A stretch of 37,579 nt of DNA from an uncultured Bacteroidota bacterium. GTDB lineage: Bacteria > Bacteroidota > Bacteroidia > Chitinophagales > LD1. A program made the position numbers and the translations under genes. Shown here piece by piece: positions 23,929 through 29,042 of this stretch; position 1 is the first letter of the stretch, and each line of letters starts with the position of its first letter. The stretch lies in contig CAIXGR010000039.1 of the NCBI GenBank assembly GCA_903919075.1, forward strand, positions 1 through 37,579. Direction: 5' to 3'. The notes below the pieces were generated by a model. It searched no databases. It was not told where the DNA came from and saw only the letters and a list, made by a program, of their open reading frames with translations.

Positions 23929-24864
23929 TTACCCCTTCATCCTAATCTTATACGAAGGAAACGGCATCTTAAAAAGATTCAATGCCTTAAATGCGGCTTT
24001 TCCGGTAGCGTCATTTTTTCTCAATCTTGGCAAATCGGCATCTAAAGAAAACTTCAGCACTCGGTAGCGGATCAAATCAGTTCTGTCATGCTCCTTTCCC
24101 TTTTCATCTATCCACTTATTTTCAAAACCACCGTATAAGTTTTCGCCTTTATATCCAATAGCAAGGCACATCCAGTCGGGTTTAATGGCCGGTATAAATT
24201 TTGATGGATTCACAGAAACCCATAGTGTCATATTATTATAATCTTTCAATAATCGCTCAGCAAAAGTTTTCCCAAAAAGATTATCTGCACGTTCACTCAA
24301 TTCTCCCGCAGGGTAAGGGCTTTCACTTCCGTTATAAGAGTACTTGCACATAATGCGCTGCTCCTCCCACAATAAATACTGCGTCATAGCCAGCGATGCG
24401 CCAATAAAATTCGCCATCAGGTCACTCCACGATGCGCCCCACTTGGCAGAGTAACCATCCCAAATCTCAATACTGCTATGAAAACTCATCCCTAAAAAAG
24501 CCGCCGTAATTGCCGCGCGTTTATTATCAACTCCCGACCATCGCAAAAGTTCATACGCCCAAACCGTCTCAAAATATGCCCCGAATATGTGTCCGGTCTT
24601 ATCCATCTGGTTCCACTCCCGCCGGTCATCAAACCAATGAAAAGCATTTCGTTTATACAACCGGTACCATGCAAAATTTAACCAGGTAAAAGTGATTGTG
24701 TAAAGGCCCGCAATAACAAAACCCAAAACATATAATCGTTTCCTGTCTGGAAGGTTCGCACTTTTCATTAATGACGTGACCGCAGATGGCTTAGCTTGCT
24801 TCGCTTTATCCCGAACATAATCAGCATAAAGAATATATATAATGATGACAAGAAGTATAATCAT
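23929..24864 (-). CDS. DUF2279 family membrane-associated protein
   Basis: A 311-residue protein with two N-terminal hydrophobic segments (residues 1-13 and about 46-64). It contains a DUF2279/YfiM-like core: QMDKTGHIFGAYFETVWAYE, FLGMSFHSSIEIWDGYSAKWGAS and DLMANFIGASLA, with conserved Asp, Lys, His and Trp positions. The family is found in Bacteroidota envelopes and its function is unknown. The C-terminal 120 residues form an extra soluble region with many aromatic residues. It is the last gene of a minus-strand run and starts 18 nt after the GH25 lysozyme gene, so the two are probably co-transcribed, which hints at a role at the cell wall (inference). Confidence 0.75.
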   Translation of the reverse strand: MIILLVIIIYILYADYVRDKAKQAKPSAVTSLMKSANLPDRKRLYVLGFVIAGLYTITFTWLNFAWYRLYKRNAFHWFDDRREWNQMDKTGHIFGAYFETVWAYELLRWSGVDNKRAAITAAFLGMSFHSSIEIWDGYSAKWGASWSDLMANFIGASLAMTQYLLWEEQRIMCKYSYNGSESPYPAGELSERADNLFGKTFAERLLKDYNNMTLWVSVNPSKFIPAIKPDWMCLAIGYKGENLYGGFENKWIDEKGKEHDRTDLIRYRVLKFSLDADLPRLRKNDATGKAAFKALNLFKMPFPSYKIRMKG

Positions 24865-24882
24865 GTGTGCGGTTCCGGTAAT

Positions 24883-25680
24883 TTATTTCACCAACAAAGA
24901 ATCAAACTGTGCCCGGCTGCCATTAAACACATCCGCATCGGCATTACTATTAATGCCAAGCAAATCGGCTTTATTAGAATGCTGCCAAAACACCCACCGG
25001 ATGCCCTCATCCGGATCTAACTCCTGCTGGTAATAATTCGAAATCCAAAACGGATACTCTTCAAAGTCATCAGCCAAATAATCTTCAACAAAATTTATGT
25101 TCGAATAAATAATGGGCTTTACCTTATACTGCTCTTCAATTTTATGAAGATATACTTTTAGTGTGGCCACAATTTCATCTTTGCTTTTACCGCGCACCTC
25201 CTCAACATCAACCGCCGGAGGCAGGTCTCCGGCCTGTAACTTTACCGTCGAAGTAAAATTCTTCGCTTGTAGCTCGGGGCTCCTGTCCGGCAAAAAATAG
25301 TGGTAAGCTCCCCGAACAATATGATGGTCTCTGGCATCATCCCAATTCTCATCAAACATTTCATCTTCTATAACCAGGCCCTGTGTTGCTTTAATATATA
25401 CAAACTGAAAGTTAATAGTATCGCCATGTGTATTTACAGCCTGCAACTTTCGCCAGTCAATAACATCCTGAAAGTGCGACACGTCAATACCATGCACTTC
25501 ATATCCATCCGGAAAATCTGAGGGTTTAAAATTCGTTTTGTAATACCGGTGGGTAATGTACCGGTATGCCCTGCGCACATATTTCCTGTTCTGATAAATA
25601 AAGAGAATAAGCACTGCTACTAATATTATTTGCAGCAGCCTTTTTGTCCATAAGAGAGTTTTACTCTTTTGTTTCGCCAT
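24883..25680 (-). CDS. Membrane-anchored GH25 lysozyme-like muramidase
   Basis: A 265-residue glycoside hydrolase family 25 protein, the family that cleaves N-acetylmuramic acid to N-acetylglucosamine bonds in peptidoglycan. An N-terminal anchor helix lies at about 13-29 after a basic start, then the TIM-like domain from about 60. Catalytic positions are present: Asp66 in GIDVSHFQ and the Asp158-x-Glu160 pair in PPAVDVEEV, with FVYIKATQG, RGAYHYF and WISNYY as family landmarks. The enzyme probably acts in the periplasm from the inner membrane. It starts 3 nt after the RidA stop and is followed 18 nt later by the DUF2279 gene. Confidence 0.92.
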   Translation of the reverse strand: MAKQKSKTLLWTKRLLQIILVAVLILFIYQNRKYVRRAYRYITHRYYKTNFKPSDFPDGYEVHGIDVSHFQDVIDWRKLQAVNTHGDTINFQFVYIKATQGLVIEDEMFDENWDDARDHHIVRGAYHYFLPDRSPELQAKNFTSTVKLQAGDLPPAVDVEEVRGKSKDEIVATLKVYLHKIEEQYKVKPIIYSNINFVEDYLADDFEEYPFWISNYYQQELDPDEGIRWVFWQHSNKADLLGINSNADADVFNGSRAQFDSLLVK

Positions 25681-25683
25681 TAA

Positions 25684-26082
25684 TTAAATGGTGGCAATTA
25701 CTTTTAGTTCGATAGCAATAGCAGAAGGAAGCGCATTCACTTCAACAGTAGTACGGCATGGTTGATTCTCTTTAAAATACTCAGCATATATCCGGTTAAA
25801 CGTATGAAAATCTCTTTTCATATCAACCAGAAATACGGTTACGTCTACAATTTTATCCCAGCCACTTCCAGCGGTTTCAAGTGCTGTCCTTACGTTTTTA
25901 AAAACAGAATGCACCTGCTTCTCAAAATCAAAGGTTTTGTAATTGCCAAATTTATCTAACTCAAGCCCGGGTATATTATCTGTACCCGCCTCGCGTGGGC
26001 CCATGCCCGATACGAACAATAAGTTTCCAACCTTTTTTGTGGCCGGATATAATCCCATAGGTTGCGGAAGTTTATCGCTCAT
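25684..26082 (-). CDS. RidA (YjgF/YER057c/UK114) family protein, probable 2-aminomuconate deaminase
   Basis: A 132-residue trimeric-type RidA protein. Family features: LLFVSGMGP, AGSGWDKIVDVTVFLVDM, and the ligand-binding QPCRTTVEV with Arg110, plus Glu125. General RidA proteins hydrolyse enamines and imines; a branch (NbaF/AmnD type) deaminates 2-aminomuconate in 3-hydroxyanthranilate or 2-aminophenol breakdown. The neighbouring AMSDH-like dehydrogenase makes 2-aminomuconate, so that role is likely here, by context and not by a unique motif. An 82-bp gap with a weak hairpin separates it from the dehydrogenase. GH25 starts 3 nt after it. Confidence 0.8.
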   Translation of the reverse strand: MSDKLPQPMGLYPATKKVGNLLFVSGMGPREAGTDNIPGLELDKFGNYKTFDFEKQVHSVFKNVRTALETAGSGWDKIVDVTVFLVDMKRDFHTFNRIYAEYFKENQPCRTTVEVNALPSAIAIELKVIATI

Positions 26083-26147: not shown

Positions 26148-26166
26148 AAACAGAATTTTTCTGTTT
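26148..26166 (-). other. Weak hairpin overlapping the dehydrogenase stop codon
   Basis: AAACAGAA and TTCTGTTT form a perfect 8-bp, AT-rich inverted repeat with a 3-nt loop. It covers part of the aldehyde dehydrogenase stop codon and the start of the gap to the RidA gene. Only a short interrupted T-run follows, so it is at best a leaky terminator. Confidence 0.35.
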
Positions 26167-27607
26167 AAATTTTAATGCAAACATTTTTTGCTTCCGTAAA
26201 AAACCGCATCGCTTCCCATCCACCTTCGCGGCCTACCCCGGAGGCCTTAACGCCGCCAAAAGGAGTCCTTAAATCGCGCAGCAGCCAACAATTAATCCAT
26301 ACAATGCCAGCTTCAATTTTTTCAGCTACTCGATGTGCTCTGCTTAAATCAGTGGTCCATATAGAAGATGCCAAGCCGTACTTAACCGAGTTAGCCATAG
26401 TCAAAACTTCCTCCTCACTTTCAAAAGGCGTAAGCGTTACTACCGGTCCGAAAATTTCTTCTTGTTGAGTGCGGCATTTATAATCTAAGCCTTCAATAAC
26501 AGTAGGCTCTATAAAATAACCTTCAGCACAACGCCCCTCTATTTTTAATTCTTTACCACCGCACAAAATTTTTCCGCCTTCCTGTTGCGCCAGTTCGATA
26601 TATGACAGAATTTTTTCTTTGTGTTGTTTTGAAACAATGGCGCCCATCATCGATTTTTCATCCTGCGGGTCGCCGGTTTTTAATGTTTTAACGCGGGCAA
26701 CAAATGCTTCTTTAAATTTCTCGTAAATGGATTTCTCAACAAAAACTCTTGAGCCACACAAACAAATTTCGCCCTGGTTAGATAGCGATGCGGTTACCGT
26801 TTGTTTTACTGTTTCATCAAAATCGCAATCGGCAAAAACTATAGTAGGATTTTTGCCACCTAATTCTAACGACAACTTTTTAAACATTGGCGCAGCTGTA
26901 GCTGCAATTTTTTTACCGGTCTCTGTGCCACCGGTAAAAGATATGGCTTTAATTTCAGGATGTTCAATAATTGCTTGTCCTGCTTTACCGCCTAAACCAT
27001 GCACTATATTCAAAACTCCTTTAGGCAAACCGGCTTCAATACAAACTTCTGAAAGCAGATATGCTGTGTAAGGTGTTACCTCGCTTGGCTTAGCAACCAC
27101 GCAGTTACCGGTAGCCAAGGCCGGTGCAATTTTCCAACTAAACAGATATAGGGGGAGGTTCCAGGGAGAAATGCAGCCCACCACCCCAATAGGCTGGCGC
27201 AAAGTATAGTTAACTCCCATTCCCGGCATCTGATGGCTTTCAGAAGCAAAATGCTGAAGCGCCGAAGCATAAAATTTGAAGTTAGAAACGGCGCGTGGAA
27301 TATCAACAGCACGAGCAAGCTTCAAAGTTTTCCCGTTATCTCTTGACTCTGCCGCCACAAACTCATCCATTCTTTTTTCTATGCCGTCAGCAACTTTCAT
27401 CAACAACATCATGCGCTCTTCCAATCCGGTATTGCTCCATGCGGCAAACGCCTTCTTAGCCGCATCAACAGCCAATTGCACATCCTGCGAATCTGAGTCA
27501 GGAATTAATCCATAAACTTTGCCGGTTGCGGGCTCGTAATTGTCGAGATGTTTTTTCGAAACAGCCTCTATCAATTCACCGTTAATGTAGTTTTTAATAG
27601 TTATCAT
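26165..27607 (-). CDS. 2-aminomuconic 6-semialdehyde dehydrogenase (ALDH8A1/AMSDH type)
   Basis: A 480-residue NAD-dependent aldehyde dehydrogenase. Catalytic Glu248 lies in LELGGKNP, nucleophile Cys282 in NQGEICLCGSR, and oxyanion Asn150 in SPWNLP. The NQGEICLC block and the NCWLLRDLRTPFGG segment are strongly like ALDH8A1 and bacterial AMSDH (NbaE). Arg444 sits where AMSDH has its substrate-binding Arg464 (offset 20, as for the Cys). The enzyme would oxidise 2-aminomuconate semialdehyde to 2-aminomuconate. Gene order supports it: a 3-hydroxyanthranilate dioxygenase gene nearby, and a RidA deaminase gene downstream. 2-Hydroxymuconate semialdehyde is an alternative substrate of close relatives. 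Confidence 0.9.
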   Translation of the reverse strand: MITIKNYINGELIEAVSKKHLDNYEPATGKVYGLIPDSDSQDVQLAVDAAKKAFAAWSNTGLEERMMLLMKVADGIEKRMDEFVAAESRDNGKTLKLARAVDIPRAVSNFKFYASALQHFASESHQMPGMGVNYTLRQPIGVVGCISPWNLPLYLFSWKIAPALATGNCVVAKPSEVTPYTAYLLSEVCIEAGLPKGVLNIVHGLGGKAGQAIIEHPEIKAISFTGGTETGKKIAATAAPMFKKLSLELGGKNPTIVFADCDFDETVKQTVTASLSNQGEICLCGSRVFVEKSIYEKFKEAFVARVKTLKTGDPQDEKSMMGAIVSKQHKEKILSYIELAQQEGGKILCGGKELKIEGRCAEGYFIEPTVIEGLDYKCRTQQEEIFGPVVTLTPFESEEEVLTMANSVKYGLASSIWTTDLSRAHRVAEKIEAGIVWINCWLLRDLRTPFGGVKASGVGREGGWEAMRFFTEAKNVCIKI

Positions 27608-27617
27608 ATACTATAAG

Positions 27618-28415
27618 TTATAAGCAGGCAGTTCTTCCACCATCAACCGGTACATTAATGCCGTTAATATACGCCGCCGCGGGGCTTGCTAAAAAAGCCA
27701 CTGCATTTGCAACCTCTTCGGGCTTTCCAAAACGCCTTAGTGGAATTGTCTTCAGCATCTCCTCTTCAATCTTTTCTACCGGTGTGTTTGTTTTCTCGCT
27801 TTTAGTTTTAATCAGGCTATGATGGCGGTCCGTTTCTGTAGCGCCTGGTAAAATATTGTTTACAGTAATTCCAAATTCTCCCAATTCATTAGCCATGGTT
27901 TTGGCCCAGCTTGCCACTGCTGCGCGAATAGTATTACTTACACCAAGATTAGCCAGCGGCTGCTTAACAGATGTTGAGATGACATTAATAATTCTTCCAT
28001 ACCCATCTTTCTTCATCCCCTCCATAAAAAGTTTGGCAAGAATATGATTGCAGATAAGGTGCGATTCGAAAGCAGCAATAAACTCATCTTCCTGCGCATC
28101 TTGTATTTTCCCCGGGTTAGGCCCACCGGTATTATTAACTAATATGTGGTACGTTTTATTGTTCTTTTTAATGTGGCGCTCTACCACGCTTTTTACTTTT
28201 TGTGGCTGGCTGTAATCAACTGCTACATAATCGTGGCGCTGGTCGCCTTTGCCAATAAAACTCAGGTCTATCAGGTTTTGCATTAAGGCCTGTTCATCGC
28301 GCCCCACCAAAGTAACATTTCCGCCAAGCCGCGCCAGCTCAAAGGCTACTGCCTTGCCTATTCCTTTACTGCTTCCGCCTACAAAAGCATTTTTACCGGT
28401 TAAATCGAGATTCAT
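27618..28415 (-). CDS. Atypical short-chain dehydrogenase/reductase lacking catalytic Tyr and Lys
   Basis: A 265-residue SDR-fold protein. The nucleotide-binding start is GGSSKGIGKA (residues 13-22), with NNTGG at 94-98 in place of NNAG, and the C-terminal GGR region is intact. The active site is not: where SDRs have YxxxK, this reads SNTIR, with Ser160 for Tyr and Arg164 for Lys; Ser147 and Asn are present. This matches the divergent, FabG-like SDR subgroup described as lacking the catalytic tetrad. ATG 28415 is preferred over an in-frame TTG four codons upstream. It precedes the AMSDH gene by 10 nt, so a link to 3-hydroxyanthranilate breakdown is likely, but its role is unknown. Confidence 0.88.
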   Translation of the reverse strand: MNLDLTGKNAFVGGSSKGIGKAVAFELARLGGNVTLVGRDEQALMQNLIDLSFIGKGDQRHDYVAVDYSQPQKVKSVVERHIKKNNKTYHILVNNTGGPNPGKIQDAQEDEFIAAFESHLICNHILAKLFMEGMKKDGYGRIINVISTSVKQPLANLGVSNTIRAAVASWAKTMANELGEFGITVNNILPGATETDRHHSLIKTKSEKTNTPVEKIEEEMLKTIPLRRFGKPEEVANAVAFLASPAAAYINGINVPVDGGRTACL

Positions 28416-28526: not shown

Positions 28527-29042
28527 ATGATAACAAGACCTTTAAATTTTAAAAAGTGGATTGACGAGCACCGCCATTTATTAAAGCCCCCTGTAATGAA
28601 CCAGGTAGTATATAAAGGTAACGACGACTTTGTGGTAATGGTAGTAGGCGGTCCCAACAAGCGCAAAGATTTTCACTACAACGAAACTGAAGAGTTTTTC
28701 TACCAGTTAGAAGGCAATATCGTTGTAAAAATTGTAGAGGATGGAAAAGTGGTAGACATGAATATTAACGAAGGCGACATTTTTCTCTTGCCCGCACGCA
28801 CTCCCCACTCTCCCCGCCGCCCCGAAAATTCCATCGGTTTAGTAATGGAAGTAAACCGCCCACAAGGTGTATTAGATGCCTTTCAATGGTATTGCGAAAG
28901 TTGCGGCAATAAGCTGTACGAAGAAAAATTACGTGTTGATGATATAGTAAAAGACCTGCCCGGAGTAATGGAGCGCTTTTATGCTAATAAAGAGTTGCGC
29001 ACTTGCAAAAACTGCGGCACTGTATTAGAACCGCCGCAATAA
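28527..29042 (+). CDS. haaO: 3-hydroxyanthranilate 3,4-dioxygenase
   Basis: A 171-residue cupin enzyme that opens the ring of 3-hydroxyanthranilate to 2-amino-3-carboxymuconate semialdehyde. Catalytic iron ligands are His50, Glu56 and His94 (FHYNETEEFFY and LLPARTPHSPRRPE). Substrate-binding residues Arg46, Arg98 and Glu108 are present. The C-terminal rubredoxin-like iron site of bacterial enzymes is complete: Cys123-x-x-Cys126 and Cys160-x-x-Cys163. The gene diverges from the SDR-AMSDH-RidA run with a 111-bp spacer. Also called nbaC in nitrobenzoate-degrading strains. The product either cyclises to quinolinate (NAD synthesis) or is decarboxylated by ACMSD, whose gene is not here. Confidence 0.96.
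   Translation: MITRPLNFKKWIDEHRHLLKPPVMNQVVYKGNDDFVVMVVGGPNKRKDFHYNETEEFFYQLEGNIVVKIVEDGKVVDMNINEGDIFLLPARTPHSPRRPENSIGLVMEVNRPQGVLDAFQWYCESCGNKLYEEKLRVDDIVKDLPGVMERFYANKELRTCKNCGTVLEPPQ

Follow-up and report, generated by a model that had tools for sequence, protein, structure and literature searches.

A Tyr-Lys-free SDR linked to kynurenine-pathway genes in Bacteroidota: a candidate ene reductase on the way to 2-oxoadipate

The locus and the SDR gene

The window analysed here is the whole 37,579-nucleotide stretch of contig CAIXGR010000039.1 (GenBank assembly GCA_903919075.1), which comes from an uncultured Bacteroidota bacterium of the Chitinophagales. An open reading frame on its minus strand (27618..28415), running from an ATG at 28415 to a TAA at 27620-27618, encodes an SDR protein of 265 amino acids, modelled by AlphaFold2 with a mean pLDDT of 96.6; an alternative in-frame TTG lies 12 nt upstream of the ATG and would lengthen the protein by four residues. 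HAAO (3-hydroxyanthranilate 3,4-dioxygenase; 28527..29042, plus strand) lies upstream of the SDR gene and diverges from it, and its product scores above the cut-offs of TIGR03037 and PRK13264. Downstream, also on the minus strand, the SDR gene is followed by an aldehyde dehydrogenase gene (26165..27607), across the gap of 10 nt that the earlier note had described, and then by a RidA-family gene (25684..26082, minus strand). Judging from its seven best PDB matches, all of them 2-aminomuconate 6-semialdehyde dehydrogenases (best 1.5e-143), the aldehyde dehydrogenase is likely AMSDH; its best NCBIfam model is TIGR03216 (2-hydroxymuconic semialdehyde dehydrogenase), at 603 bits and below the cut-off of 693. 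The RidA-family product (PF01042; TIGR00004 at 91.5 bits, below the cut-off of 106) is from its context a candidate 2-aminomuconate deaminase. A GH25 lysozyme-like gene, which begins 3 nt past the RidA gene, and, in the same orientation, a DUF2279 gene occupy 23929-25680 and are probably unrelated. Elsewhere in the same genome, an ACMSD homologue was found at C33 and a glutaryl-CoA dehydrogenase, with 1sir (glutaryl-CoA dehydrogenase) as its best PDB match (1.2e-130), at C82.

Among the labels used below for other genes of the pathway, KMO denotes matches to kynurenine 3-monooxygenases (1.1e-104), kynureninase is above the cut-off of TIGR01814, TDO denotes the Pfam family Trp_dioxygenase, and KynB denotes the broad Cyclase family only. 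The closest PDB chains of the ACMSD homologue at locus L201 are named ACMSD (1.5e-128), while a second type of amidohydrolase, labelled "ACMSDb", is related to ACMSD only distantly (5e-25); no NCBIfam model matched either type at the thresholds used.

The N-terminal glycine motif GGSSKGIG (residues 13-20), NNTGG (residues 94-98) and the C-terminal GGR are all present in the SDR, in agreement with what had been noticed at first reading. Ser147 (codon 27975..27977) falls in the catalytic Ser column of the FabG alignment, 13 residues ahead of the Tyr column, and is thus the classical catalytic serine retained. The YxxxK motif is absent: in the columns where FabG 2p68 has YSTTK, the window SDR has SNTIR (codons 27924..27938), with Ser160 and Arg164 in place of Tyr and Lys, and both the translation and the alignment bear out the replacement that the earlier note had claimed. 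An Arg after the second strand is taken in SDRs as a sign of NADPH preference, and the invariant Arg39 at this place hints at such a preference here.

Superfamily membership is clear from the Pfam families adh_short_C2 and adh_short (PF13561, 142 bits, cut-off 27; PF00106, 113 bits, cut-off 26.6), and none of the 25 NCBIfam models listed, of 221 matching, was above its cut-off. The FabG models are far from theirs (PRK12826.1-2, 153 bits against 222; TIGR01830, 139 against 298), and FabG, while it has in common with the window SDR the overall fold, the Rossmann motif and the catalytic Ser (2p68 and others), carries the YxxxK that is absent here. The suspicion that a 3-oxoacyl-ACP reductase label would be wrong was therefore justified, and we rejected a FabG identity. 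CDD cd05344, with which the earlier note had suggested a comparison, is a FabG-like SDR subgroup in which the catalytic motif is imperfect. Compared with solved SDRs, the AlphaFold2 model gave Z scores of 33.9-36.9 among the 50 matches listed, with 36.7-36.9 for 5vps, 5va8 and 5idy, 36.5 for L-sorbose reductase and 35.4 for FabG; differences in Z of less than 1 are ties, so that fold alone does not select a function. The window genome contains nine other SDR matches, the best-scoring of which is 32% identical.

A conserved clade and its ties to the kynurenine pathway

In a quick maximum-likelihood tree, with SH-aLRT as the only support and with L095 (broken motif) excluded, the window SDR belongs to an SNTIR clade of 57 rows with no outsiders inside (SH-aLRT 96); AerF and BacG (see below), classical SDRs and other SNxxR SDRs fall outside it. 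The 50 Bacteroidota genomes of this clade had been chosen by eye on an E-value gap and the motif and were later tested as a clade by the tree. Ser160 and Arg164, whose conservation in homologues was the point raised by the earlier note, are both found in 57/57 members, as are Ser147, Arg197 and His61, while Asn161 and Thr162 are each found in 56/57 and His119 in 51/57. The alignment of the 57 members has 41 invariant columns and Tyr in none of them (Y249 is Tyr in 53/57), and conservation thus points to no alternative Tyr-Lys pair elsewhere in the protein. Among 38 aligned orthologues, Ser160, Thr162 and Arg164 occur without exception, and in a set of 35 sequences that also spans other SDR subfamilies Ser147, Ser160, Asn161, Arg164 and Arg197 are invariant. 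Identity to the window protein is 42-60% across the 37 relatives compared.

The distribution of the SDR follows that of AMSDH. Among 296 Bacteroidota genomes, 39 have both, 11 the SDR only, three AMSDH only and 243 neither, so that the SDR is present in 39 of the 42 AMSDH genomes against 11 of the 254 genomes without AMSDH; Fisher p-values overstate the significance of such counts because the 296 genomes are related, not independent. The one threshold applied to AMSDH was E 1e-150 (in G275 and G283, HAAO is present and AMSDH not counted), and some misses are possible because the best few candidates were scored per genome (up to eight for the SDR, five for AMSDH and six for glutaryl-CoA dehydrogenase). 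The SDR accompanies HAAO in 41 of the same genomes, with nine having the SDR only, 27 HAAO only and 219 neither, where HAAO was counted at E <1e-40, a level reached by 68 of the 89 matching genomes. The SDR is tied more closely to AMSDH than to HAAO, and we do not favour a broader tie to HAAO or to the synthesis of NAD, since just two of the 26 genomes with HAAO and without AMSDH have the SDR. The tie to 3-hydroxyanthranilate breakdown that the single locus had suggested is strong and specific in these genomes.

Gene neighbourhoods agree with this. A core kynurenine gene lies within 6 kb at 31 of the 50 clade loci, against 0/31 for other SDRs, most of them SNxxR, whose loci were those left over from the same searches rather than a random draw. 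Many loci end near contig ends. AMSDH itself is within 6 kb at 17/50 clade loci, on the same strand in 17/17 and within 123 bp (between tblastn match ends) in 13/17. No core kynurenine gene was found within 6 kb at 19 of the 50 clade loci. Eleven of the 50 clade genomes are without AMSDH at E 1e-150, and nine of these 11 are also without HAAO. In three genomes without AMSDH or HAAO (G253, G126 and G033; loci L054, L057 and L061), the SDR adjoins KynU, which would be either a relic or a sign of a second role. At up to 21/50 clade loci the SDR has an ACMSD homologue within 6 kb; given these, and the one in the window genome, we rejected the SDR as a substitute for ACMSD.

The association recurs in Proteobacteria. 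In a scan of named genomes, considering the best 80 of 585 relatives, which are not a random sample, the closest relative was from a Chitinophagales MAG (75% identity), and a kynurenine-type gene (Rid included) was found at 43 of the 80 loci. The SDR stands directly before AMSDH in the Gammaproteobacteria Marinicella sediminis, Aliikangiella coralliicola and an Alteromonadaceae MAG, and one alpha- and one gammaproteobacterial MAG have the order SDR, AMSDH, RidA, HAAO, ACMSD, KynB, KynU, KMO. In the class to which Marinicella belongs, HAAO was found in 16/369 genomes; an ACMSD homologue (at least 49% identity) is near HAAO in eight of the 16, and six of these eight have an SDR with SNT[IVL]R. 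The other eight HAAO genomes, among which G381 has an ACMSD-like gene at 37%, have no SNT[IVL]R SDR, and four of them have an SNGAR-type relative. AMSDH, RidA, HAAO and ACMSD are present in G349 and G337, where no SDR match was found at E 1e-30; G337 was seen on a 4.7-kb contig, and the kynurenine cluster of G349 is otherwise complete. At the G349 locus (L222) an apaH-like gene follows AMSDH by about 165 bp, while L211 has the order apaH, SDR, AMSDH, so that L222, without the SDR, is a natural deletion for comparison with L211.

Relatives without the catalytic tyrosine and the route after aminomuconate

The best single-sequence PDB match to the SDR is AerF (6jh7, 1.3e-42), and BacG, which we take to be the same protein as YwfH, also scores high. 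AerF belongs to the aeruginosin pathway of Microcystis aeruginosa, and the titles of its PDB entries (6jh7, 6jha and 6jhb) name NADPH and a 2-oxo acid as ligands. BacG belongs to the bacilysin pathway of Bacillus subtilis; its entries (3u49 and 3u4c) are titled "NADPH dependent reductase", and a passage of a review gives its reaction as dihydro- to tetrahydro-hydroxyphenylpyruvate (H2HPP to H4HPP). Both proteins are reported to reduce unsaturated 2-oxo acids. The SDR fold of the window model superposes well on both (6jhb of AerF, Z 35.8, rmsd 1.7 Å over 262 residues; BacG, Z 35.9, rmsd 1.5 Å over 254 residues), and a Tyr-Lys pair is missing from all three, the motif being SNTIR in the window SDR, SGVVN in AerF and NSMMN in BacG. 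AerF has Ser in the Tyr column and no Lys, as in the window SDR, but it has Asn where the window SDR has Arg. At three columns (Ser147, 119 and the Lys column), AerF and BacG both have Gly, Lys and Asn, respectively, whereas the window SDR has Ser, His and Arg there and lacks the AerF/BacG-type site residues. AerF also works in another pathway, on a substrate bulkier than the one proposed here. In the tree, AerF and BacG pair together (97) outside the SNxxR rows and form no single clade with the window SDR, and this position is unsure because BacG was flagged as a long branch. The Arg197 column holds Arg in AerF, BacG, 5va8, 2z1n and 1o5i, and Met in FabG 2p68.

Other solved SNxxR proteins are 5va8, 5vps and 5idx/5idy from Burkholderia, 1o5i from Thermotoga (TM1169) and 2z1n from Aeropyrum (APE0912), whose records give no function. 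Like the window SDR, 5va8 (SNGAR), 1o5i (SNSAR) and 2z1n (SNIMR) combine Ser-Asn and Arg with Ser147 and Arg197, and all three are outside the kynurenine-linked clade in the tree. NADP is bound in 5va8 and 5idy, and NADPH in 5vps.

Two further SNxxR subfamilies have neighbourhoods of their own. Genes of an LYLSN..R subfamily adjoin a RidA-type gene at 6/6 loci (L106, L114, L115, L116, L118 and L119), with starts less than 1 kb apart; a coupling of Rid proteins to Tyr-less SDRs may extend further, and it would fit enamine or imine products. Those of an LILSNS.R type (several of L100-L111) lie near genes labelled by eye as 3-hydroxyacyl-CoA dehydrogenase-like, acetate-kinase-like and FAD protein genes.

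The textbook bacterial exit from this pathway runs through 2-oxo-3-hexenedioate decarboxylase, 2-oxopent-4-enoate hydratase, 4-hydroxy-2-oxovalerate aldolase and acetaldehyde dehydrogenase. The aldolase model TIGR03217 was above its cut-off in one of the 42 AMSDH genomes, G128, and in none of 14 further SDR genomes; it matched below the cut-off in 20 more of the 42, in 12/14 of the further SDR genomes and in 14/14 control genomes, and we read these matches as related aldolase-type enzymes. No genome was above the cut-off of the hydratase model TIGR03220, to which G128 gave a strong match (1.9e-95) and G030 and G041 weak ones (2.6e-16 and 1.8e-4, respectively). G128, which is among the three genomes with AMSDH only, has RidA, hydratase/decarboxylase, acetaldehyde dehydrogenase and aldolase genes in a row, the aldolase and acetaldehyde dehydrogenase above their cut-offs and the hydratase/decarboxylase below, and a second decarboxylase-type gene adjoins its HAAO. 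G085 and G293, with kynurenine clusters at L125 and L126, have AMSDH, but no SDR and no aldolase above the cut-off genome-wide. In the proteobacterial HAAO genomes, the aldolase was searched for genome-wide in G296 and near HAAO in the others, and none was found near HAAO in G337 and G349.

Glutaryl-CoA dehydrogenase is present in 42/42 AMSDH genomes; because it is also widespread (179/254 of the others) and within 6 kb of the SDR at 0/50 clade loci, it counts as weak support. At L066 and L201 it comes after the kynurenine genes, with one pyrF-like gene (by eye) between. Taken together, the aldolase and hydratase models and glutaryl-CoA dehydrogenase indicate that AMSDH genomes with the SDR are, by the measure of these models, without the usual exit and are equipped for 2-oxoadipate. 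PMC7842363 names two ways onward from 2-oxo-3-hexenedioate, one of which is its reduction to 2-oxoadipate, and passages of two reviews lead to glutaryl-CoA from 2-aminomuconate semialdehyde (PMC10143591) or from 2-aminomuconate (PMC13151070) and name no reductase. In the literature searched, mostly as listings with a few passages, no gene for the reduction of 2-oxo-3-hexenedioate or 2-aminomuconate was found, nor was the phrase "aminomuconate reductase".

Proposed function and its alternatives

The SDR family is real, strongly conserved and linked to the pathway, and its active site is not the classical one. Judging from its co-occurrence with AMSDH and from the missing alternative route, it most likely acts as an ene reductase through which the breakdown of tryptophan reaches 2-oxoadipate. 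We give a probability of about 0.5 to the reading that it is an NADPH-dependent C=C (ene) reductase acting late in the kynurenine pathway, with 2-oxoadipate as the product. Confidence stays near one half because of the exceptions to the pairing of the SDR with AMSDH, the site differences from AerF and BacG, and their separate branching. The fuller statement, in which the whole clade would be an aminomuconate or 2-oxo-3-hexenedioate reductase that uses Ser160, Arg164 and Arg197 and feeds a mammal-like glutaryl-CoA route of tryptophan breakdown, is a little more tentative and falls somewhat short of even odds.

In the proposed scheme, HAAO would open 3-hydroxyanthranilate, ACMSD would decarboxylate the product and AMSDH would oxidise it further to 2-aminomuconate, from which RidA would take off the amino group, with RidA and the SDR possibly acting in either order. 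The SDR would then transfer the hydride of NADPH in a conjugate (1,4) addition, its target being the C=C beside the 2-oxo (or imine/enamine) group of 2-oxo-3-hexenedioate or 2-aminomuconate, with Arg197 (codon 27825..27827) as a candidate ligand of the substrate carboxylate, and 2-oxoadipate would go to glutaryl-CoA and crotonyl-CoA by a 2-oxoacid dehydrogenase complex and glutaryl-CoA dehydrogenase. Cofactor, substrate, product, order of steps and the roles of Ser160, Arg164 and Arg197 are all proposed here from context and homology. Tyr and Lys would be replaceable by Ser and Arg because conjugate addition leaves an enolate, for which protonation of a carbonyl by the Tyr-Lys pair is unneeded. 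AerF binds and BacG acts on a 2-oxo acid, and 2-oxo-3-hexenedioate is likewise one, its double bond being conjugated.

The earlier note had proposed a non-canonical role in 3-hydroxyanthranilate breakdown, perhaps the binding or isomerisation of a muconate intermediate; the link to the pathway has held up well, and the binding or isomerisation now appears the weaker option beside a reductase. In that version, the SDR, with cofactor or as apoprotein, would tautomerise, isomerise or bind 2-aminomuconate, 2-hydroxymuconate or 2-oxo-3-hexenedioate, and a separate reductase would follow. The loss of Tyr and Lys together with the conserved polar Ser147, Ser160, Arg164 and Arg197 suits non-redox acid-base chemistry, and the tight linkage to AMSDH and RidA is as expected; however, 2-oxo-3-hexenedioate would be stranded in the 41 of 42 AMSDH genomes without an aldolase above the cut-off, so that a second, unlinked enzyme would be required, and those near relatives to which a double-bond reaction has been assigned are reductases that depend on NADPH. 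We consider it unlikely. A conjugate reductase is the simpler reading, because the cofactor motif is kept, several solved relatives hold NADP(H), and AerF and BacG reduce C=C bonds. The SDR might otherwise be an alcohol or ketone SDR with a rebuilt active site and a substrate not specific to the pathway, for which the clade genomes without AMSDH and the tie of L-sorbose reductase with the best folds (Z 36.5 against 36.9, FabG being at 35.4) can be cited; since the whole clade is associated with AMSDH and the same association is seen again in Proteobacteria, this is quite improbable.

Slightly less probable still is a role one step or two before this, with ACMS or 2-AMS as the substrate, in which the SDR might pass 2-AMS to AMSDH and so avert its cyclisation to picolinate. 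The shared strand of the SDR and AMSDH wherever the two are within 6 kb speaks for it, as does the spontaneous cyclisation of both semialdehydes described in a passage of PMC10143591, but it predicts neither the near-absence of the hydratase-aldolase route from SDR genomes nor that the sole AMSDH genome with this route is without the SDR. Finally, the textbook Tyr and Lys are gone, as they might be in a hitch-hiking or decaying gene with no catalytic role; a decaying site would drift, yet Ser160, Arg164, Ser147 and Arg197 have stayed invariant throughout the clade despite the divergence of its members, and we have discarded this explanation as highly improbable.

With a gene family backed by genome-wide evidence, the reduction step between aminomuconate and glutaryl-CoA becomes testable by one expression experiment. 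If the ene reductase reading is true, it would provide a function for some members of a widespread group of SDRs with FabG-like sequences, and it would be an instance of an SDR free of the Tyr-Lys pair that transfers hydride in catabolism rather than in natural-product synthesis. Many Bacteroidota and some Proteobacteria would then use a mammal-like glutaryl-CoA route of tryptophan breakdown, in place of the hydratase-aldolase route.
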